DNA from: a virus
Virus record (IMG/VR): IMGVR_UViG_3300025402_000031
Coordinates: 1-36,685 of that record
Strand: one strand, 5' to 3'
DNA: 36,685 nt
The translations under genes and the position numbers were made by a program. Under the pieces are notes generated by a model. The model made no database searches and had not been told where the DNA came from. It saw only the letters and a program-made list of their open reading frames with translations. This document shows, piece by piece, positions 2,154 to 14,999 of this stretch (positions are counted from its first letter, which is position 1; each line of letters opens with the position of its first letter).

Positions 2154-4211
2154 CTATGTCAAAGTGTTACGCACTGGTAACAGAACGCGGCTCTGGCGGT
2201 TAGCGTAACCTACGTTAACTGTCAAACTAGCAAGTTGATTATACCTAGCTAAAAAATCTGGGCTAGGAAAAGCTGCCTGACTAGCAGGGTCAGCCGGTGT
2301 GCCGGTATCAGTGTAGGTCGTTATACCCGAGGCGGCAGTTATCGTTGTAAGTTGCTGGAGGAGACCACTACGCCTTCCCCAGATAGTATAGCTAACTACG
2401 TTAGTTAACGCAGGCCATGTCAGTGTAATGGAATCTGTTAGTGCACCAGCTGGGATTGTAGGAAATACCCAACCGGAAGGTGGACCATAGTCCGTTCCAC
2501 CTAACGGCGACGCGGCGTTTACAGAGATAGCATAAGAGTAAATTGCACCTAAAGTTCCGCCTGTTAAAGTTCCGCCGGTGGTGTTAATCGTGTAGCTTAG
2601 TTGCGGTGGCGTGGGCAGCGTTACCAACATAGGAGCTGTTGGGCTGGCTACCGTAACATAGGAAATTTGACCTGGTGCTGCGTTGTGCGCGGTTGTAATC
2701 AAATCGTCTATGTAAAAAGGAGTAGACAAAATACCTGGGCGCGGTGCAAAAAGATTGGTAATACCCTTTTGAACTGCGGCTTGAACTGCGGTTAGGTCGG
2801 TAACGGAGTTAAAACAGTAGGCTGTTAGGTTTACTGTAACTGGAATTGGTATCGGTGCTTGCCACAAGAACCTAGTCGAGTACATTGACTGGGATTGCAA
2901 ATACGCCAAATAGGCGTTAATTTGTCCCGAAGTCCAGGTGCTGTTAGTCAACGCAGACACTCTAATTACGTTCATCCATCTGACGTCTAGCGTGTTAATT
3001 TCTCGCTGGCTTTGTGTTACTGAGTCAATTATCCCAGGATAGTTATTAACCATTACCTGATACTGAGGCTTAGTAACTGCTGAACCAAATGTCCCAAACG
3101 TGCCTGCTGAGAAGTTTTTGTAAGCTAACGAAGGCTTCTCGGGTGCACCGCCCGAGGGATTGGCTGTAAACGAGCCAGTCAAAGTAGGATACGCAGAACA
3201 GGTTACTGCAACACCTGCTAAGTTTAGGCCATTAACAGTCTCGCCCTGTGTCTTGGCATATGTAATGGTAACAACGTCGTTAACACCAGGAATGCTGCCG
3301 TAGCCATTAGAGCCAAACTGAATTAGAAGACGTCCATCCGGCAATGTTAAATCAGCAAACGCGGGTAGGCCTTGGTAGTTCCACAGACCCCCAAAAGCTT
3401 TGGTTATTCCAGTATTGTTGATTTTAAGAGTAACGTCTTGGTCAGACACTGTGAACTTGTCATCCGTAGAAACCCAAGCTTGCAGGTTACTACCCAGTCC
3501 GTTAATGTTAAAAGTAGATACGATACCTTCTTTTAAGAGAACAGAGGCAGGTACTGTAGCAGAGAGGATAATCTGCGTGTCGTTAAACCAGCTTTGACCG
3601 CCGCCTGAAAATTGCGTGTAAGCAGGAATGGTTATAGAGGTAGACGACGATATAGTAGCAACAGAACTTGAAGGCAATTTGCGAGCCAACCGGAGACCCT
3701 GCATATTCGCAATAGCCCGAATTGCTGAATCAGATTGGGCTGTTGTAGGAAATGCGTCCTCAGTTAGGCGAACAATACGAGAAGTCGTGTAAGTACCAAT
3801 AGCTGCAATCAACTCAATCAACGTCTGCGACGTCTGAGTTGTTAGGCCAGTGCTCCAAGTTTGACTTACAGACAAAGCATTTTGCAATTGAGTAACAAAC
3901 TGAGTTTGATCAACTGTAAGGTTAGATAAAGATATTAGGTCCAGAACTAACAGTGTAAATGCCTGAAACACTGTTTGAACTGGGCTACTACTGTCCGTTA
4001 CCTGCATGGTAAAGTTGTAGATGCCCAGTGTAGTAGGCGTACCTGTTATGCCGGACGCATCAGATAGCAACGTCAAACCGGGTGGCAACGAGCCGCTAAT
4101 CAGCGCAAAAGTGTACGGAGTAGTTCCACCAGAAATAACAAAGTTAGTGGAATAGGCAGTGTTTAGGTTACCCGCTGGTACGGTCTGCGTTACAAAAGTT
4201 GGAGTTGTCAT
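2154..4211 (-). CDS. Baseplate J/gp6-like wedge protein with N-terminal Ig-like domain
   Basis: A 685-residue protein. Residues 1-90 match the putative Ig domain (He_PIG type): ISGGTTPYTFALISGSLPPG, then GITGTPTTLGIYNFTMQVTD. Residues ~95-515 look like a baseplate J core, with MQGLRLARKLPSSS, an SITIPAYTQF segment, and a long central domain ending in RPGILSTPFYIDDL and APGQISYVTV. Residues ~535-650 hold a fibronectin-III-like domain (ITLTWPALTNVVSYTIWGRR). Baseplate J and T4 gp6 proteins form the wedge ring that drives sheath contraction. It sits between the gp25-like and gpI-position genes, as expected. The Ig-like and Fn3-like additions make it longer than simple J proteins and may decorate the baseplate surface. 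Confidence 0.9.
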   Translation of the reverse strand: MTTPTFVTQTVPAGNLNTAYSTNFVISGGTTPYTFALISGSLPPGLTLLSDASGITGTPTTLGIYNFTMQVTDSSSPVQTVFQAFTLLVLDLISLSNLTVDQTQFVTQLQNALSVSQTWSTGLTTQTSQTLIELIAAIGTYTTSRIVRLTEDAFPTTAQSDSAIRAIANMQGLRLARKLPSSSVATISSSTSITIPAYTQFSGGGQSWFNDTQIILSATVPASVLLKEGIVSTFNINGLGSNLQAWVSTDDKFTVSDQDVTLKINNTGITKAFGGLWNYQGLPAFADLTLPDGRLLIQFGSNGYGSIPGVNDVVTITYAKTQGETVNGLNLAGVAVTCSAYPTLTGSFTANPSGGAPEKPSLAYKNFSAGTFGTFGSAVTKPQYQVMVNNYPGIIDSVTQSQREINTLDVRWMNVIRVSALTNSTWTSGQINAYLAYLQSQSMYSTRFLWQAPIPIPVTVNLTAYCFNSVTDLTAVQAAVQKGITNLFAPRPGILSTPFYIDDLITTAHNAAPGQISYVTVASPTAPMLVTLPTPPQLSYTINTTGGTLTGGTLGAIYSYAISVNAASPLGGTDYGPPSGWVFPTIPAGALTDSITLTWPALTNVVSYTIWGRRSGLLQQLTTITAASGITTYTDTGTPADPASQAAFPSPDFLARYNQLASLTVNVGYANRQSRVLLPVRNTLT

Positions 4212-6997: not shown

Positions 6998-8029
6998 TCA
7001 AGGAATAAAGTTAGAAACAATACTGGCCGCTTTGTTAGCCGCATTCTGCGCAATGCTAGAAACCTGAGGTACAATGTTCAAGATACCCGAGTTGTTGAGA
7101 ACAGAAGAAGGCACGTCTAAGGCTGAAAGACCAGAACCTAAACCTGCCGAAACAGACGGTAGCGAGCTAGGCAAATTCCTAACCTTTATCAAGTTAGGAA
7201 TATCAGCAGTAGTCAAAGCAAACATAGGTGCAAAGGTTACAGAGACTGTGGCACTCTGAAAAGTACCGGTAAGTGCGTCCACTACCTGTGGTTTGTACGT
7301 GTGATTAACTTGCTTAATGATAATGTTGTCTAGTTGAAACCAGGTTCCTATGTTAATAGAAATCCTATTTTCAAGATTCTTTTCAACATCATCTTTGCTA
7401 ATTATGCCTGCAACAGAATTTACGGCTGTCTGTACTACGTTAGAGACAGATTCAATAGAGCCATTTTTTATGGCATTGGCCCCTGCTGCGCTGATTGCCT
7501 GACCGGCACCAATAATCTTTCCACCTACTGTCTGCGTTAGGTTCTTAACACCGGCGGCAGTTAACACAGGGCCAGGCGAAGTCAAGAACCCGCCCGCGCC
7601 AAGTCCTGGCATAGACATCTGCATTAGAGCCTTAATTGGATCAACAATATCGGCAACCGGATCTTTCCAGGTGTTAAATTCAAAAACAACCGTAAAGCTT
7701 AGCGAATCATTCTCACCTTGCCATACTTGCATTGTCATAACTTGCGTTACCAACCGATTACCTGTTGCGGCAAGTAGGTCACCGACTAAGCCGCTGCCAG
7801 CAATACCAGCGCCCCAAGGAGCTTTCCAGCCTACGTCCTGCGATAATTGAAACTCTTCTGGGACACTACCTAAAACAATTAGGGGTTGTTTCTTGTTATG
7901 TTGAACCAAAAGTACCTGGTAGCTGGTATTCTGCAAGGTTGGGTCGGTTTGTGCAGATCTCGGCGCACTACCTGAAAAACTACTTGGTACAGTAGGTAGA
8001 GAAGATAAACTGTCTATAAGTTGCGACAT
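6998..8029 (-). CDS. Baseplate/tail-tube-associated protein
   Basis: A 343-residue protein upstream of the gp53-like gene. The N-terminal half has NTSYQVLLVQHNKKQPLIVL, then EEFQLSQDVGWKAPWGAG and a beta strand ending in FTVVFEFNTWKDP. That arrangement resembles tube-like baseplate proteins of the T4 gp48/gp54 kind. The middle and the C-terminal ~60 residues are Ala/Ser/Gly-rich and helical, a plausible extension reaching toward the tube. The role as a baseplate-to-tube adaptor is inference. It starts at an ATG after TTAGGAAATACA. Confidence 0.85.
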   Translation of the reverse strand: MSQLIDSLSSLPTVPSSFSGSAPRSAQTDPTLQNTSYQVLLVQHNKKQPLIVLGSVPEEFQLSQDVGWKAPWGAGIAGSGLVGDLLAATGNRLVTQVMTMQVWQGENDSLSFTVVFEFNTWKDPVADIVDPIKALMQMSMPGLGAGGFLTSPGPVLTAAGVKNLTQTVGGKIIGAGQAISAAGANAIKNGSIESVSNVVQTAVNSVAGIISKDDVEKNLENRISINIGTWFQLDNIIIKQVNHTYKPQVVDALTGTFQSATVSVTFAPMFALTTADIPNLIKVRNLPSSLPSVSAGLGSGLSALDVPSSVLNNSGILNIVPQVSSIAQNAANKAASIVSNFIP

Positions 8030-8037
8030 TGTATTTC

Positions 8038-9654
8038 CTAATTTAGGATTAACGGTTGACCATTACGATTTATAACAATCGAACTGAGGTCAGGCATTGA
8101 ATATTTTAAAGGCTGACCTTTAGAAGACGGAAGGTCAGGTAAATAACTAGCAGGGTCAATTGCTACGCCACTTTTATCACGTACTTCAAAATGCAAATGA
8201 GGGCCAGTAGACTTACCTAAATTTCCCATCTCAGCAATTACCTTACCTTGAGGAACGTAGTCACCTACGTTGACAAACTGTTTGCGCGTATGACCATACC
8301 TTGTCGTAATGTTGCCGTGGTCAATGGCAACTAGCGAACCATATCCGTTAACAGGCCCTGAGGTTACGACCTTACCAGCCGCCGCAGCATAAATCGGGGA
8401 ACCTTCTGCGTTAGCAATGTCTATACCGTCATGCGGTGCAAGTTTACCTAGCAAGAACCGCTCCCCAAAAGGAGATGAGAACGTACCTCCCGCAGGCATT
8501 ATAAGACTAGGTGAAAGGTTGCCCGGCAGCGGTGTTTGCGCAGTAGCTATTTGCTCTTGTGCAGGCGGATACTGACCAAAAGGATACATAGGCCCTGTTT
8601 CTAATGCCGTAGACAAAGGTTGGTTGTTTATGGCACTAAATTGACCTTTAACTCTTCCTGCGTATTCTAAAGATTCTGTTGCCAGAGTTCTTTTGCCTTT
8701 TAGGGCTTGATTAAGCGCAGTCTTTCCAGCGTTGTACGCAACCAAAGCTTTGTCGTAATCACCTTGATAAAAGGCCACCAAATCACTTAATAAAACTGCG
8801 GCCCCCTCAGCCGCCTGTTCTGGGTTAAGAGGGTCGACAGTTAAACCTTTGTTCTTAAGTTCTTTTACGGCAACAGGCATCAACTGAAATAGCCCCTTTG
8901 CGCCAGCCTTAGATTCAGCATTGGGGTTACCATTTGACTCTTGCGCCATAACCGCAGCAAGTATACCTGGTTGCAGATTATGTGCCTTTTCTTTACTAGC
9001 GAGACCTAGTTTAGTTTCCCAATTTTTAATCCTTGCAACGTCTTTGTCCTTAAGCGTAGACTTAATTTCGCCTTGGTCAGCAACTCCCTTGGTACGAATT
9101 TCGGCAGTAACCTTGTTTACAGGATTTGCTGGCAGAGAGGCACTCTCTTCTTTATTAGTCAGGTACTTGTAGAGTTTATAGCCTGCTGTTCCTGTAGCTA
9201 ATACCGTTCCAATAGCTAACGCTGACATAGGGTTGTTAACAAGCAAACCTACTACGGCGGCTGCGGCAGAAGTGAAAAAGGTAAAGGCTGGTATGACTGC
9301 ATACTCAATTGCGTAACCTACCATCTTAATCAGACCTTTGCCAACAGAAGACACTAAACCCACTACGCCTTCTTTAAGAGCATTTCCTACGGTACTAAAC
9401 AGATCGTCTTCTTCTGTGTCTAACTTATTAGAAGATAGTTTTTTATCGTAAAGAACCTTGGTAACAACCGTGTTTAGTTTGTCCAAAGAAGTTTTAAGGA
9501 CTCTGCGCGACTTAATTGTATTGCCGTGTTCAATTGCGTCTGCTATTGAGTAGGCCATTCCGTGAAGGGCTACGTTAGATGCTTCTAATACCGCATCCCC
9601 CGCAGTAGCTGCCAGCCCTTTGCGTTTTTGGTCAACAAACGATAGGATGTTCAT
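8038..9654 (-). CDS. Tail-associated muralytic protein: SLT lytic transglycosylase plus M23 peptidase, with membrane segments
   Basis: A 538-residue protein in three parts. Residues ~100-160 contain two hydrophobic stretches (VIPAFTFFTSAAAAVVGLLV and SALAIGTVLATGTAG) able to cross a membrane. Residues ~225-325 are a soluble lytic transglycosylase domain with catalytic Glu near 239 (VMAQESNGNP), GLFQLMP and VAYNAG. Residues ~385-510 are an M23 endopeptidase with H..D (APHDGIDIA, ~H408/D412) and HLHFE (~486-490). Together they would cut glycan strands and peptide cross-links during DNA entry. It sits between the tape-measure candidate and the baseplate. I prefer the ATG at 9654 (TAAAATG after the upstream stop); a GTG at 9672 is an alternative. 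Confidence 0.95.
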   Translation of the reverse strand: MNILSFVDQKRKGLAATAGDAVLEASNVALHGMAYSIADAIEHGNTIKSRRVLKTSLDKLNTVVTKVLYDKKLSSNKLDTEEDDLFSTVGNALKEGVVGLVSSVGKGLIKMVGYAIEYAVIPAFTFFTSAAAAVVGLLVNNPMSALAIGTVLATGTAGYKLYKYLTNKEESASLPANPVNKVTAEIRTKGVADQGEIKSTLKDKDVARIKNWETKLGLASKEKAHNLQPGILAAVMAQESNGNPNAESKAGAKGLFQLMPVAVKELKNKGLTVDPLNPEQAAEGAAVLLSDLVAFYQGDYDKALVAYNAGKTALNQALKGKRTLATESLEYAGRVKGQFSAINNQPLSTALETGPMYPFGQYPPAQEQIATAQTPLPGNLSPSLIMPAGGTFSSPFGERFLLGKLAPHDGIDIANAEGSPIYAAAAGKVVTSGPVNGYGSLVAIDHGNITTRYGHTRKQFVNVGDYVPQGKVIAEMGNLGKSTGPHLHFEVRDKSGVAIDPASYLPDLPSSKGQPLKYSMPDLSSIVINRNGQPLILN

Positions 9655-9655
9655 T

Positions 9656-11554
9656 TTAGTTTGATAAGACACCAGCGTTAAGTATTATCAATTGATCAGG
9701 CGTTGCTCTATTGGGAACAAGCCGGTTGCTTGCGCCTGTACCCACAGAGCCGTTGCCTGGCCTACCCACAGAGGCGGGGCCAGGGCCTGCACTAGGCGTT
9801 TCTTTTGACTTTTCAGTCATTACCGAGCCTGTAGCATTGTATGGAGCAGGGTTAGGTGCGCTTATCGCGCCGCGTCCTGTGCTACCAGCAAATTTAGGCG
9901 AAGTCCAAGAAACTGCACCAGCAACATAGTAGGGGCTGACCTTAATAGCTCTACCTAAAGCATTAAACCTGTCTGCTGACCTAGGGTCAATACTTCCTGG
10001 AGGCGCCGTCTTTAAGAGGTCTTGTACCTGGTCGTCTAGGGTACTATTAGCCGTAAACCAATTTAGAGGATTTCCGCTGTCATACCTAGAAGTTAAGATG
10101 TCTAATTTTTCTGATTGCGGTGACCTAGAACCAAGTTTGCTCTTTGCGGGAACTGAATCGATACCCGCTGCTAAAGCTGCACTTGGATTAGCGTCTACTC
10201 GTTTCTGTATTACATCAATAGACGCATCTCTTTTATCTGCTGCAACTTTAATATCCTCGTAAGGACGTGAGAAGGAAGCCTTAGCACCACGTAAATCTGC
10301 CGTTGCAGTATCTACATTGGACTGCTCTTCTTTAGCCTTTCTTTGATCTTCAGTGTTTAGACCTAACCAGCCAGCAACAGTATCTTTAATAAAAGACCAG
10401 GACTTTTCCCACATAGTCTTCATTAAGGTACTAAACCATTTTTCCCCAAAAGTCTTGTCTAAGAAGTCGTTAAGGCCACTTAAGATAGGCCCAATTAGAG
10501 TTGGTATAAGGGCAGCTATACCGAAGAGCTCCCCAAATCCAGCATTACCTACAGCCGCAAAAGGTTTACGGATATAGTTCATTAGCATACCGGAGATGCT
10601 ACTTACCTTTTTAGTAAGCCATCTAAAAGTATCTTGACCCATATTACCAAAGAACCTTGCTACTTGTTCTGCCTTGGCAACAGCCGCAACTGCCCTAGGA
10701 GAATTCTCATAGCCTGATTTAAGAGCAGTAACTCCGCTGGTGATACCGCTAGACACTTTTGATTTGGCGTCTTTCCACCATTCATTTGCGGTGCTAGCCT
10801 TACCACCTAAAAACTTGTATGCCCTAGAGCCAAAACTTTCTTCCTTGCTTTTTCCAAATTTGTTTGATACAACAACCTTAGCTTTTTGTTTTAGCCAGTG
10901 ACTAATTGCTTCTAATCGCTTTTTGTATTCCTGTTGTTGTAGCTTTAGCTTAACGTCGAAAAGGTTAATGCCGGATTCAGCAACCTGGTAATCAGCTTGG
11001 ATGTCTCGCAGTACCTTAGGTGAAATTAGGTTAAGCAGCTCAGCCTTTTCAATTTTCTTTTCAGCAGAAAAAAGAGCGTCTCTTGCCTTGACCATTAAGG
11101 GATGTTGCGTTTGCTCTTTACCTTCTGTTTTGTTTATCAGGTCTAAAGCTTTAACATCTTTTTCGTCCGTTTTTACCTTCTTGGCATCACGCAGAGCCTT
11201 AAGCTTCTTGGCTGTCAAGAGTTTGTTTTTAACCTTTTCAATTCTAATCTTTTCAGCAGCCGCTTTTTTATCGTCCTCAATGGCTTTTTGTTGTTCTGCA
11301 ATTTCTTGCTGATGCTTTTTAAGATTAGTCTCTTCAACGGCTAGACGTTTGGCGTCTAAAACTGCCTGCTCTTTGGCAAGCTTTTCTGCTTGTTTTGAAA
11401 GCTTTAGGCCTTTTTTAGAGTTAGCAAGTGCCTTGGCACCCAAGAGTTGCCTAGAATTTTTAACAATGTCCTGAAGGTTTAATAAAGGAACACTGCTTAC
11501 ATCGTTGTAAGCCTGTCTAGCTTTTTTAGCTTGGTCTCTTGGATCGTATGCCAT
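9656..11554 (-). CDS. Coiled-coil structural protein, tape-measure candidate
   Basis: A 632-residue protein. Residues ~45-220 are a nearly unbroken Lys/Glu/Ala-rich coiled coil. A hydrophobic segment follows at ~339-363 (GFGELFGIAALIPTLIGPIL). The C-terminal third is rich in Pro, Gly and Ser. It follows the gp26-like gene and short overlapping ORF and precedes the muralytic gene, the usual position of a tape-measure protein. At 632 residues it is short for a long contractile tail, so the measuring function may be shared with the 538-residue protein downstream, or the true tape measure is elsewhere. The start ATG has no strong ribosome site, suggesting coupling to upstream translation. Confidence 0.88.
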   Translation of the reverse strand: MAYDPRDQAKKARQAYNDVSSVPLLNLQDIVKNSRQLLGAKALANSKKGLKLSKQAEKLAKEQAVLDAKRLAVEETNLKKHQQEIAEQQKAIEDDKKAAAEKIRIEKVKNKLLTAKKLKALRDAKKVKTDEKDVKALDLINKTEGKEQTQHPLMVKARDALFSAEKKIEKAELLNLISPKVLRDIQADYQVAESGINLFDVKLKLQQQEYKKRLEAISHWLKQKAKVVVSNKFGKSKEESFGSRAYKFLGGKASTANEWWKDAKSKVSSGITSGVTALKSGYENSPRAVAAVAKAEQVARFFGNMGQDTFRWLTKKVSSISGMLMNYIRKPFAAVGNAGFGELFGIAALIPTLIGPILSGLNDFLDKTFGEKWFSTLMKTMWEKSWSFIKDTVAGWLGLNTEDQRKAKEEQSNVDTATADLRGAKASFSRPYEDIKVAADKRDASIDVIQKRVDANPSAALAAGIDSVPAKSKLGSRSPQSEKLDILTSRYDSGNPLNWFTANSTLDDQVQDLLKTAPPGSIDPRSADRFNALGRAIKVSPYYVAGAVSWTSPKFAGSTGRGAISAPNPAPYNATGSVMTEKSKETPSAGPGPASVGRPGNGSVGTGASNRLVPNRATPDQLIILNAGVLSN

Positions 11555-11565
11555 TTTTATCGGGT

Positions 11566-11763
11566 TTAACCGCCTATGTAAATTTGACCTTCCTTATGTG
11601 CCTTAACTTTATCTTCCCAGATAGAGACAACTTTATTAGACATATAAAAGAAAGTTGAACTAAGCATGTTTTCGTCCCAAATATGAAATTCTTGAGCTAT
11701 TCGGGTTTGTCGGTCTACAATCTCAGCCTCAGAACTCAGGGGAAAGAAAACAGGACGTGTCAA
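11566..11763 (-). CDS. Short ORF overlapping the gp26-like gene, possible frameshift extension
   Basis: An open frame of up to 65 codons, with no ATG before codon 33. The only early start is a TTG lying 35 bases inside the upstream gene. A stop closes this frame at 11769-11767, so entry must happen within a short interval. The peptide includes VDRQTRIAQEFHIWDENMLS and YMSNKVVSIWEDKVKAHKEG, which looks like real helical protein. Between a tail-tube-like gene plus partner and the tape-measure candidate, many phages encode a tail-assembly chaperone and its frameshifted extension. Reading on from the upstream gene needs a +1 or -2 shift. Independent initiation at TTG or a rarer codon is the alternative. 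Confidence 0.65.
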   Translation of the reverse strand: MTRPVFFPLSSEAEIVDRQTRIAQEFHIWDENMLSSTFFYMSNKVVSIWEDKVKAHKEGQIYIGG

Positions 11764-12739
11764 CAGTCAGGGGAACCTGCTGTGACACGCCACACTCCTT
11801 ACATTTTGATGTTACTGTTTCTTTAATTCCATAACCGTCAATAAGAGCTGAAAACTCTTTAATTAGCGGCACATGGTCCATAGCTAGCTCGTTCTCAACA
11901 AAGAGAATCTTTTCGTTTAACGTTAAAGGCAAATCCAGGTGTGCAGCCAGTTTTGCACTAAATTGGAAATCTGCACTGTCCCAACGCTGTTCAGGGTCGT
12001 CCAAAAATTGAATCGTGTTTAACATATTCTCAGGCACTAGTCTCACCGGAGGACGATTATCAAAATACAAAGTGTACTTCTCTTCGTCTGGCTTATGGTC
12101 TAAATGAATAACCTTAATATCAGACTCTTTGTATACCAGAATGTTCTCCAAGCTCTTAGGAGACAGTGCTCCCAGTTTGACTTGGTCAATGTGCTCGTCA
12201 TGCTGGCATATCCAACGATAGCGCATTTGCGGCTTAGCAAACGAGTTCATTCGCAACCAATACAAAACAGCCGTAAAATCCGCAGTAGAGAGTTTAAAGC
12301 CAATGTCTGTATCGCCATTAGGCGTAGACAAAACGGTGCTAACTACTTCCACCAACATCTGCAAAGATGCTTCCTGCTGAGACCTTGCCAGTTTGGACAA
12401 ATGTTTGACAGTAAAAGGTTTAATGTATAAGTCTTTAAAGTCGTAATAGGCAAATTTTGAAGGTAAATCCAAAGAGATGCCGTCAACAGTTGAAACTGGC
12501 GTAGGTAGAGGAGCATTATTTGGCACCGTATTTTCTGGTGCCTCTGTTTTTGTAGCCTTAGGGGGCACAATAGACGCCGGGTCAGTTTGCACGATTGGCA
12601 AAGGACGTTGTTGCCTTTCGGGACGTACAGACTCTATTTTTGGCCTGTCACCTACAGTCTCACGCAACTTTTGATCTATTATGTCGCGCATTTCTGCAGG
12701 AAACGGTTTGGTTTCGGTTTGGTTTACTATACTGGGCAT
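11729..12739 (-). CDS. gp26-like baseplate-hub/tail-assembly protein
   Basis: A 336-residue protein. The first ~90 residues are proline-rich and probably disordered. The folded part starts with GISLDLPSKFAYYDFKDLYI and contains helical segments and a C..H..H element (RWICQHDEHI), then a second pair, CKEC (residues 313-316), close to the C-terminus (TSCFLSPEF). The layout of a LPSK..YY.F opening, helical core and late CxxC followed by an FLSP ending resembles the T4 gp26 family (PF12322) of hub-assembly proteins, which may be the myoviral counterpart of tail-assembly chaperones. Its last 35 bases overlap the next short ORF. The start ATG at 12739 lacks a clear ribosome site. Confidence 0.87.
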   Translation of the reverse strand: MPSIVNQTETKPFPAEMRDIIDQKLRETVGDRPKIESVRPERQQRPLPIVQTDPASIVPPKATKTEAPENTVPNNAPLPTPVSTVDGISLDLPSKFAYYDFKDLYIKPFTVKHLSKLARSQQEASLQMLVEVVSTVLSTPNGDTDIGFKLSTADFTAVLYWLRMNSFAKPQMRYRWICQHDEHIDQVKLGALSPKSLENILVYKESDIKVIHLDHKPDEEKYTLYFDNRPPVRLVPENMLNTIQFLDDPEQRWDSADFQFSAKLAAHLDLPLTLNEKILFVENELAMDHVPLIKEFSALIDGYGIKETVTSKCKECGVSQQVPLTVDTSCFLSPEF

Positions 12740-12753
12740 GGTAGTTGATTAGT

Positions 12754-13608
12754 TTAGAACTGGAAAGGGATCTGGTTTAACACGTTGGTTGCCGCACTCT
12801 GTATGCCTGAAGTTATTTTGCCTATAACGCCAACGTCACCTGAACTTGTTAGTGCGTTTGTTAATTCTGGTGCGTTAACTACTGTAATTTCGATATCTTC
12901 AACTTTCAAACCTACTGTTAGTGTCATGACTTCTGGGTTGTTAGAACTCAATTCACTAAAGGAAGTTTGCTGGCCTGGGGTGCAGTTTATATATTTAATG
13001 TTTATGAGATTGTTCTTCATACCGTTAGAGTACGAATAAAGAACAAAATTTATGTTCTTTTTATAATCACCTGGCCTACCCCACTTACCCTGAGAGTTAG
13101 GATTGTAGGAACTACCCTGACTAACTACCATATTACGCCAAGCTTGGTACCATTTTAAAGCCGCGTTTTTATCGTCCATAAAAAGGACTAAATTTAAATC
13201 AGGTACCGAGTAATAATTAGGAAAATAAATCTGCTTACCGTTCCTAGTTATTGGGTTCATAGTAACCTCCATTGCCGGGAGGTTAGACGTTTGAACATAA
13301 TACCAAGGTAGGTCTACTGGGTTTCCACCTGAAAAGCCAACATCACCCACTGTAGGTAAAACACACCACCAATTTATGTTCTGTACCGCGTCACCGCGGG
13401 CGTTCATACCCGCAAATGAGTCGCCTAAGCCTACACCTGGAGTAGTATTAGGGTTAAGCAGCCCATTGCCATTAAGGAGACCTTTAATGGTGCTGTTTAT
13501 GTAGGCTTTTGTCTCACCTAAAACGCTAGACTGGGCAGACCCTATGGCCTGCCCTAATGAAGTCTGTAACGCGCCGACCTTGCCGGCTATGTCAAAGAAT
13601 GAATCCAT
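12754..13608 (-). CDS. Tail-tube-fold protein (tube or tube-initiator, gp19/gp54-like)
   Basis: A 284-residue protein with a tail-tube-like middle: PWYYVQTSNLPAMEVTM (~residues 100-117), GKQIYFPNYYSVPDLNLVLF (~123-143), then MDDKNAALKWYQAWRNMV. An early strand binding neighbours, a beta hairpin and a ..V.FMDD...L..W..W helix are typical of T4 gp19-type tube subunits and related baseplate initiators. The N- and C-terminal regions are Ala/Gly-rich. It could be the tube itself or a gp54-like initiator; no sheath gene is seen beside it, which favours a baseplate role. A 91-base gap with a large stem-loop lies just upstream. Confidence 0.85.
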   Translation of the reverse strand: MDSFFDIAGKVGALQTSLGQAIGSAQSSVLGETKAYINSTIKGLLNGNGLLNPNTTPGVGLGDSFAGMNARGDAVQNINWWCVLPTVGDVGFSGGNPVDLPWYYVQTSNLPAMEVTMNPITRNGKQIYFPNYYSVPDLNLVLFMDDKNAALKWYQAWRNMVVSQGSSYNPNSQGKWGRPGDYKKNINFVLYSYSNGMKNNLINIKYINCTPGQQTSFSELSSNNPEVMTLTVGLKVEDIEITVVNAPELTNALTSSGDVGVIGKITSGIQSAATNVLNQIPFQF

Positions 13609-14114: not shown

Positions 14115-14999
14115 TTATACACCTTTTGCAAGGTCTTCGGCAGTCTTCAAATCAATTGTAATAACACGAGTGGGTTCATTTGGGCGAATTAGTCTAATGT
14201 GTTTACCGTTACTAGACTTGCGAACACCAAATTTTGTACCCTTGTCAATCACAATTGGATTGCCGCGAAAATTAACGACTACAGGCTTGGCAGCCTTGTA
14301 GGTAAAGAACTGATAATCTGATTCGGGCTTAATGCGCGCATTAAGAAGATAGGAATACATACTTGCCTCGCTTTTACGTTTCTTTAGTTCTATTGCTTGG
14401 TGTTGTAACCCGTTAACCTGCTCGTCAACTTGCAATTTTTGTGCTGGGTCCATTGTCTTTTTACTATCACGCAGAGTGTCCTGTCGCTCTTTGTTGGTTT
14501 CAAGTTGCCTATCTATATTTTCTTTATTGCGCTGTTTGTCTTTTTTCTCTACCTTGTCGCTAACTGCAGAGTTAATCTCGTAGCTCATGTAGTCGTCGTA
14601 AAGCTCTGACACAGGAACAACGGCTAAAAAAGTATCTGTTACGTCAGCACCAGGCACATTACGAAAGTAGCCTTTAGTACCCAGAAACTTTCCGTTCTTT
14701 TTAAATGTGTCTGCGATAACCTCATGGTCTTCGTTAGTCAAAACGGAGTGTTCTACTTGAGGCTGATCTTTAAAGCGCACACCATAAAACCAGATAAGGT
14801 CCTCTGGGTTTCCTCGTTTTTTAATTGCCAGCGCAACAGCACCATGGCAAATGTTAGGGCCAAGCGCCGGTGCAGTTTTGTCTTTAGCGTGAACTGGGTC
14901 AACTGTCTTGGCAATTCTTTGCAGGCAACCTGCCAAAGAAGTAGAAACGGCACTAGCCTTAAGTCTAGCACTAGCAGCTAGGTAAATAGGTTTAAGCAT
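14115..14999 (-). CDS. Portal-adjacent protein with Cys/His/Asp arrangement, possible papain-like fold
   Basis: A 294-residue protein. Residues ~45-100 hold GPNICHGAVALAIKKRG, then VEHSVL and EVIADTF. The order Cys51, His84, Asp97, with His opening a strand that is followed by a turn and a V.ADTF strand, resembles small papain-like or transglutaminase-like domains in phage proteins. Residues ~145-210 are a highly charged coiled coil, and the C-terminal ~60 residues are basic beta-rich sequence. It lies just after the portal gene, so it may be a capsid-carried or processing protein. The enzymatic reading is tentative, since only the residue order supports it. Confidence 0.87.
   Translation of the reverse strand: MLKPIYLAASARLKASAVSTSLAGCLQRIAKTVDPVHAKDKTAPALGPNICHGAVALAIKKRGNPEDLIWFYGVRFKDQPQVEHSVLTNEDHEVIADTFKKNGKFLGTKGYFRNVPGADVTDTFLAVVPVSELYDDYMSYEINSAVSDKVEKKDKQRNKENIDRQLETNKERQDTLRDSKKTMDPAQKLQVDEQVNGLQHQAIELKKRKSEASMYSYLLNARIKPESDYQFFTYKAAKPVVVNFRGNPIVIDKGTKFGVRKSSNGKHIRLIRPNEPTRVITIDLKTAEDLAKGV

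Follow-up and report, generated by a model that had tools for sequence, protein, structure and literature searches.

Introduction

Phages SPP1 and PSA carry +1 frameshifts at CCC-U sites; a paper on PSA is among the references of PMC9024508. The tail-gene frameshift behind the lambda G/GT chaperone is conserved (Xu, Hendrix and Duda 2004, reviewed in PMC5009743), and the recoding review describes tail-gene frameshifting as conserved among long-tailed phages 'except T4'. A review of the T4 tail describes gp26 and gp51 as chaperones of hub assembly and gives the function of gp51 as unknown (PMC3004832). In phage P1, knock-out of pmgB abolished tails, PmgB was not found in virions, and a role as tape-measure chaperone was suggested from gene position; rescue by cloned pmgB was weak (4.7-fold), as was the rescue of two other genes (PMC9024508).

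Here we analyze a metagenomic virus record, IMG/VR record IMGVR_UViG_3300025402_000031, over positions 1-36,685, and refer to this whole 36,685-nucleotide stretch as the window. A preliminary description made from the letters alone had proposed a programmed +1 or -2 frameshift ahead of a tape-measure candidate, and our comparison of relatives supports that interpretation as a +1 rather than a -2 event.

Results

The gp26-like gene of the window sits between a tube-like gene of PHROG 45 and a coiled-coil tape-measure candidate, the slot expected of a chaperone of the lambda G/GT kind, and a second open frame overlaps its 3' end. The features of the locus are as follows.

12754..13608, minus strand: tail-tube or tube-initiator-like gene, upstream (PHROG 45 tail tube, E=5e-12)
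11729..12739, minus strand: gp26-like gene in the 0 frame, 336-residue short form ending ...VDTSCFLSPEF and stop (Pfam and PHROG)
11746..11749, minus strand: putative slip site TTT-C, with the 0-frame codon TTT at 11749-11747 and then C (comparison of 43 loci)
11729..11731, minus strand: 0-frame stop TGA, five sense codons past the slip codon (sequence)
11566..11745, minus strand: putative +1-frame extension of 59 residues (FPLSSEAEIVDRQTRIAQEFHIWDENMLSSTFFYMSNKVVSIWEDKVKAHKEGQIYIGG) plus stop (+1 conservation in 43 loci, AlphaFold)
9656..11554, minus strand: coiled-coil tape-measure candidate (position, sequence)

The 336-residue protein matches PF12322 T4_baseplate (E=1.2e-9, 38.6 bits, curated cut-off 24.5) and PHROG 150 baseplate hub (E=2e-10), and its gene ends GTT GAC ACG TCC TGT TTT CTT TCC CCT GAG TTC TGA. 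The +1 (equivalently -2) frame is open on the minus strand from 11766 to 11566, has no ATG near the overlap, and has its sole TTG there at 11763. The dual-frame overlap is therefore real and was correctly described beforehand in its coordinates, its lack of an early ATG and its length of 35 bases, which is counted from the TTG and becomes 38 when counted from the upstream stop. Its assignment to the tail-assembly-chaperone slot also holds, with a tube-type gene upstream and the tape-measure candidate downstream. This candidate begins 12 nt past the stop of the +1 extension; Pfam and PHROG searches with it gave no match, and the same place in NCTB, phiXF1, immuto and LIS04 is taken by annotated tape-measure genes.

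Three neighboring minus-strand genes were also noted. SLT transglycosylase and M23 peptidase domains occur together in the product of 8038-9672, a gene with a GTG start that overlaps the tape-measure candidate; the protein is possibly part of a split tape measure. Downstream of the candidate lies a PmgG-like (PHROG 1114) gene at 6998-8029, so the module resembles those of some relatives that likewise have a PmgG-like gene there. Near the portal gene, positions 14115-14999 encode a protein with a KTSC/metallopeptidase N-terminal fusion domain (PF20294).

Relatives were collected by tblastn (jumbo phages and other myophages) and by scans of viral contigs, and the 43 distinct loci counted below are those left once loci more than 90% alike were removed; scans using PhiXhv-16 and Rhizobium proteins gave no additional relatives. 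Four loci were excluded from the counts, three because the contig ends (L072, L075, L083) and one, L090, because its family gene is broken at 3543, well ahead of the usual junction, with the remainder in the -1 frame, which is probably an assembly error. The dual-frame architecture with a slip site near the 3' end is conserved in all 43 loci: a 0-frame Phe codon TTT is followed by C or T (as called, C in 31 and T in 12), the stop comes 1-10 sense codons further on, and the +1 extension runs for 48-94 residues. In the homologous overlaps, whose comparison the preliminary description had advised, TTT stands at the junction in 43/43 loci, compared with 49% TTT among the other Phe codons of the same genes. 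Because the search took the last TTT-Y as the slip codon, this count is not blind, but the listed codons show the slip codon to be the Phe of a conserved F/FF motif. At the LIS04 site, TTT TTT AGT, it is ambiguous which TTT slips.

After a +1 shift, the Phe tRNA could re-pair fully in the P site (UUU to UUC or UUU) in 43/43 loci as called, which favors the UUU-to-UUC slip of a Phe tRNA that had been suggested for the window. Mu-like -2 slippage, offered as the other direction, would lead into the same downstream frame, and the TTTT run of the window permits partial re-pairing; full re-pairing after -2 is available in only 23/43 loci, with the window not among them, and we consider this route very improbable. 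Slippage by RNA polymerase on the T run could draw on the six or seven consecutive Ts of some relatives, but in many loci, including the window, the C is preceded by no more than TTT or TTTT, a run too short for polymerase slippage, and the codon phase is fixed, leaving this possibility scarcely credible. The CCCCT in the overlap, also proposed as a slip element, does not generalize, as a CCC codon directly follows the slip codon in 6/43 loci only.

CCC-U as the general slip site of the family was ruled out by its absence from most loci. In phiXF1, QdP_Psa3 and the Rhizobium phages, where the gene terminates in TTT CCC TAA, slippage at CCC-U would give the same protein.

The -1 heptanucleotide slippage of lambda, itself not universal among chaperones of this kind, does not apply to the window and fits only two single-gene loci, L027 (TCT TTT TTC CTC TAA, ~3934-3945) and L094 (TTT TTT TTC CCA, ~3694-3711). 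In both, the extension follows U UUU UUC in the -1 frame, in keeping with the classical heptamer, which would yield the same kind of protein. A single-base assembly error is not excluded for either contig, so the slip direction may have switched at these loci or the contigs may carry an assembly indel. No Shine-Dalgarno-like stimulator was found upstream of the slip site, and no consistent RNA structure was found downstream of it (mean z -0.65; window -0.48), so slip efficiency remains unexplained; for RNA structure upstream of the slip the mean z is -1.6.

In shuffles, 66 such codons stay open in ~0.7% of cases from base composition alone, and the case for the reality of the +1 frame rests mainly on conservation rather than on open length. 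Homologues of the extension occur in the same +1 frame at 42 other distinct loci. Across 13 independent pairs of extensions, differences at codon positions 1, 2 and 3 of the +1 frame number 215, 126 and 428, and this third-position-biased divergence shows, as far as sequence comparison can, that the frame is coding and that the putative extension is under purifying selection. When extensions of the window clade were compared with those of a second, T4-like clade, the profiles matched from end to end (86% probability, E 5e-6). In a single contig from a metagenomic virus record, one could suspect a frame-disrupting error or a fusion gene in decay. However, the same +1 offset is present in the complete genomes of the cultured phages BcepSauron, Motura, phiXF1, QdP_Psa3, SP-15, LIS04 and immuto, and selection acts on the extension; at the level of the family such a reading is already refuted, and we assign it a negligible chance.

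Running a family HMM over the six-frame ORFs of all loci revealed how relatives without a shifted extension are organized. Loci with the shifted extension have exactly one family gene each, whereas every intact locus without it has two adjacent family genes, one short and one long (PaBG, NCTB, Lu11, HRDY3, Y3, L042-44, L049-52, L059, L062-67 and L071). L072 has one family gene, but its contig ends there. The short paralogue ends at the motif, 1-3 residues past the profile, and the long one continues for 55-79 residues. Y3 is the exception, since both genes of this divergent pair are only partly covered by the profile, though alignment gives the same short/long difference. In the short paralogues the Phe that corresponds to the slip codon is TTC in 14/16 cases, although the background is 92 TTT to 77 TTC; because the 43 loci share ancestry, neither the TTT nor the TTC figures are independent trials.

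A second HMM, built solely from the +1-encoded extensions (E-values scaled to 1000 sequences), matched the in-frame tails of the long paralogues of L050 (2.9e-17), L059 (5.7e-17), L051 (3e-14), Lu11 (1.6e-9), HRDY3 (1.6e-8), NCTB (1.4e-5), PaBG (2.7e-5) and Y3 (7e-5), while it found no match to short paralogues or to T4 gp26. Frameshifting and duplication are thereby shown computationally to be exchangeable routes to predicted short and long forms, a supply of the same two forms by two-gene relatives that had not been seen from the window alone.

Alternatively, the small frame could be an independent gene whose translation begins at TTG 11763 or is coupled to the upstream stop. The TTG is in frame, some relatives have internal ATGs (with a fair Shine-Dalgarno or ribosome-binding site in BcepSauron (L003), L034 and L045, where the ATG could additionally start a separate small protein), and annotators of BcepSauron, Motura and PhiXhv-16 called separate small ORFs. 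Against independent initiation, start positions in the extension frame are not conserved, the TTG included, and Shine-Dalgarno sequences are mostly weak; ATG is absent from -15 to +20 codons in 8/43 loci, among them the window; and the +1 frame is conserved ahead of the internal ATGs (FFPL motif), with TTT fixed at the junction. The same module is moreover fused in frame in the long paralogues. Relatives with a gap between the two frames had been named as grounds for rejecting a frameshift, and BcepSauron and PhiXhv-16 are annotated in that way, yet their +1 frame is open across the overlap. We therefore regard a separate gene as improbable and +1 slippage as the preferred reading. The small 'hypothetical proteins' annotated in BcepSauron (L003 5001-5153), Motura (L004 4971-5165) and PhiXhv-16 (L005 4827-4979) probably represent the frameshift extension, which has no annotation in phiXF1 and QdP_Psa3 (L008 4640-4788, L011 3667-3818).

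The fused product was modeled with AlphaFold from window residues 84-331 plus the extension; the modeled sequence shifts one codon earlier (TGTT=C), which leaves its letters unchanged. The model has a mean pLDDT of 90.7 and a pTM of 0.85, and the extension is predicted to be a two-helix C-terminal module of the long form, with helices at model positions 254-268 and 277-299 and block means of ~85-96. A Foldseek search of BFVD, whose entries are themselves predicted models, returned baseplate hub and hub-assembly proteins at E-values from 6e-23 to below 1e-3, including those of SP-15, T4-like hub proteins and the PaBG long form. Among solved structures, none in the PDB matched at E<=0.001 (best VIA Z 2.4).

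T4 gp26 and gp51 both belong to PF12322, but the profile leaves only 2 C-terminal residues of gp26 uncovered and as many as 48 of gp51. When six gp51 proteins were combined into a profile, it aligned with that of the fused/long relatives (93% probability, E 3e-7) and remained colinear through tail and extension; with short forms alone the probability was 39%. The extension-only HMM did not find T4 gp51, which was matched only by whole-length profile comparison. From family membership, profile comparison and the reviewed facts, we infer that gp26 and gp51 are probably duplicated equivalents of the two forms, a short/long pair.

In P1 (L019), pmgB lies at 5374-4493 on the minus strand, and further pmgB relatives are L104, L105, L111 and L167-L190. 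The pmgB family has TTT CGG near the 0-frame end in 16/16 distinct lineages, followed by a conserved, unannotated +1 extension of ~55 residues; the D6 relative has TTT CTC in place of TTT CGG. A Foldseek search with the PmgB model gave matches in the gp26-like family, the best being the SP-15 hub subunit (E 4e-9), with Gp26 of Aeromonas phage 25 also found. Beyond about residue 270, a little after the slip, model confidence drops to 35-59 in the 0-frame tail. Sequence profile comparison of PmgB with the family was not significant (30-35% probability); the relation rests on the fold search. P1 pmgB apparently uses the same frameshift, which is a prediction of the present analysis.

Discussion

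Taking together the slip site, the conservation of coding in +1, the long-paralogue tails and the gp51 and P1 evidence, we propose that one gene encodes a short and a long chaperone by +1 slippage. Most ribosomes would finish in the 0 frame and produce the short gp26-like form, while some would slip +1 on UUU-C as the P-site Phe tRNA re-pairs with UUC, and would append the 59-residue two-helix module to give a long gp51-like form. By analogy with lambda G/GT, and in the absence of binding data, the common part may bind the tape-measure protein or the hub, and the added module may recruit a tube or hub partner at a fixed ratio.

The slip site, the conserved putative +1 coding, the identity of the module with long-paralogue tails and the exchange of frameshift for duplication are computationally shown. 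That ribosomes make the +1 fusion at the window site is very likely, but this judgment comes from comparison only, no protein product having been seen. That the two forms act as a tail or hub assembly chaperone pair like lambda G/GT is likely from position, family and analogy. The broadest proposal is that gp26 and gp51 are short and long tail chaperones, that +1 slippage at UUU-C in much of the superfamily, the -1 heptamer in a few members and duplication in T4 and others are interchangeable means to this pair, that T4 is no exception to the rule that tail chaperones come in pairs, and that P1 frameshifts; we favor it as a whole, with reserve. We have neither mass-spectrometry nor reporter data on any family member. 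We found no paper describing this frameshift, but most subscription journals were not covered and a prior description is not excluded.

These results correct the annotation of many phages, in which the extension has been left out or taken for a separate gene. The family further offers repeated swaps of recoding for duplication and a natural series of +1 sites without obvious stimulator, with phage P1 as a laboratory target.

Compared with lambda G/GT, the window shares the slot between tail tube and tape measure, as well as short and C-terminally extended products of one gene in an expected set ratio. It differs in that lambda uses a -1 heptamer and the window, as proposed, +1 slippage at UUU-C/U (with two -1 exceptions in the family), and in that its gene belongs to T4_baseplate (gp26/gp51); among solved tail-chaperone structures we found no match. 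SPP1 and PSA share the +1 direction and the use of structural genes, but the family-wide site here is UUU-C/U and most members lack CCC. With the Mu -2 frameshift, the shared feature is gene position in the chaperone slot, whereas the register change here fits +1 by re-pairing. P1 PmgB shares the fold family, the slot ahead of the tape measure gene sit, and TTT CGG with a +1 extension, but has a longer 0-frame tail past the slip and only a weak sequence relation. T4 gp26 and gp51 share PF12322, and the alignment of gp51 with the long form takes in the tail, but T4 has two genes and no frameshift where the window has one gene. If one chaperone exists in T4 as gp26 (short) and gp51 (long), and other phages obtain the two forms through +1 slippage, this pairing would explain why T4 has been labeled an exception to tail-gene frameshifting, and it provides an account of that exception that can be tested.
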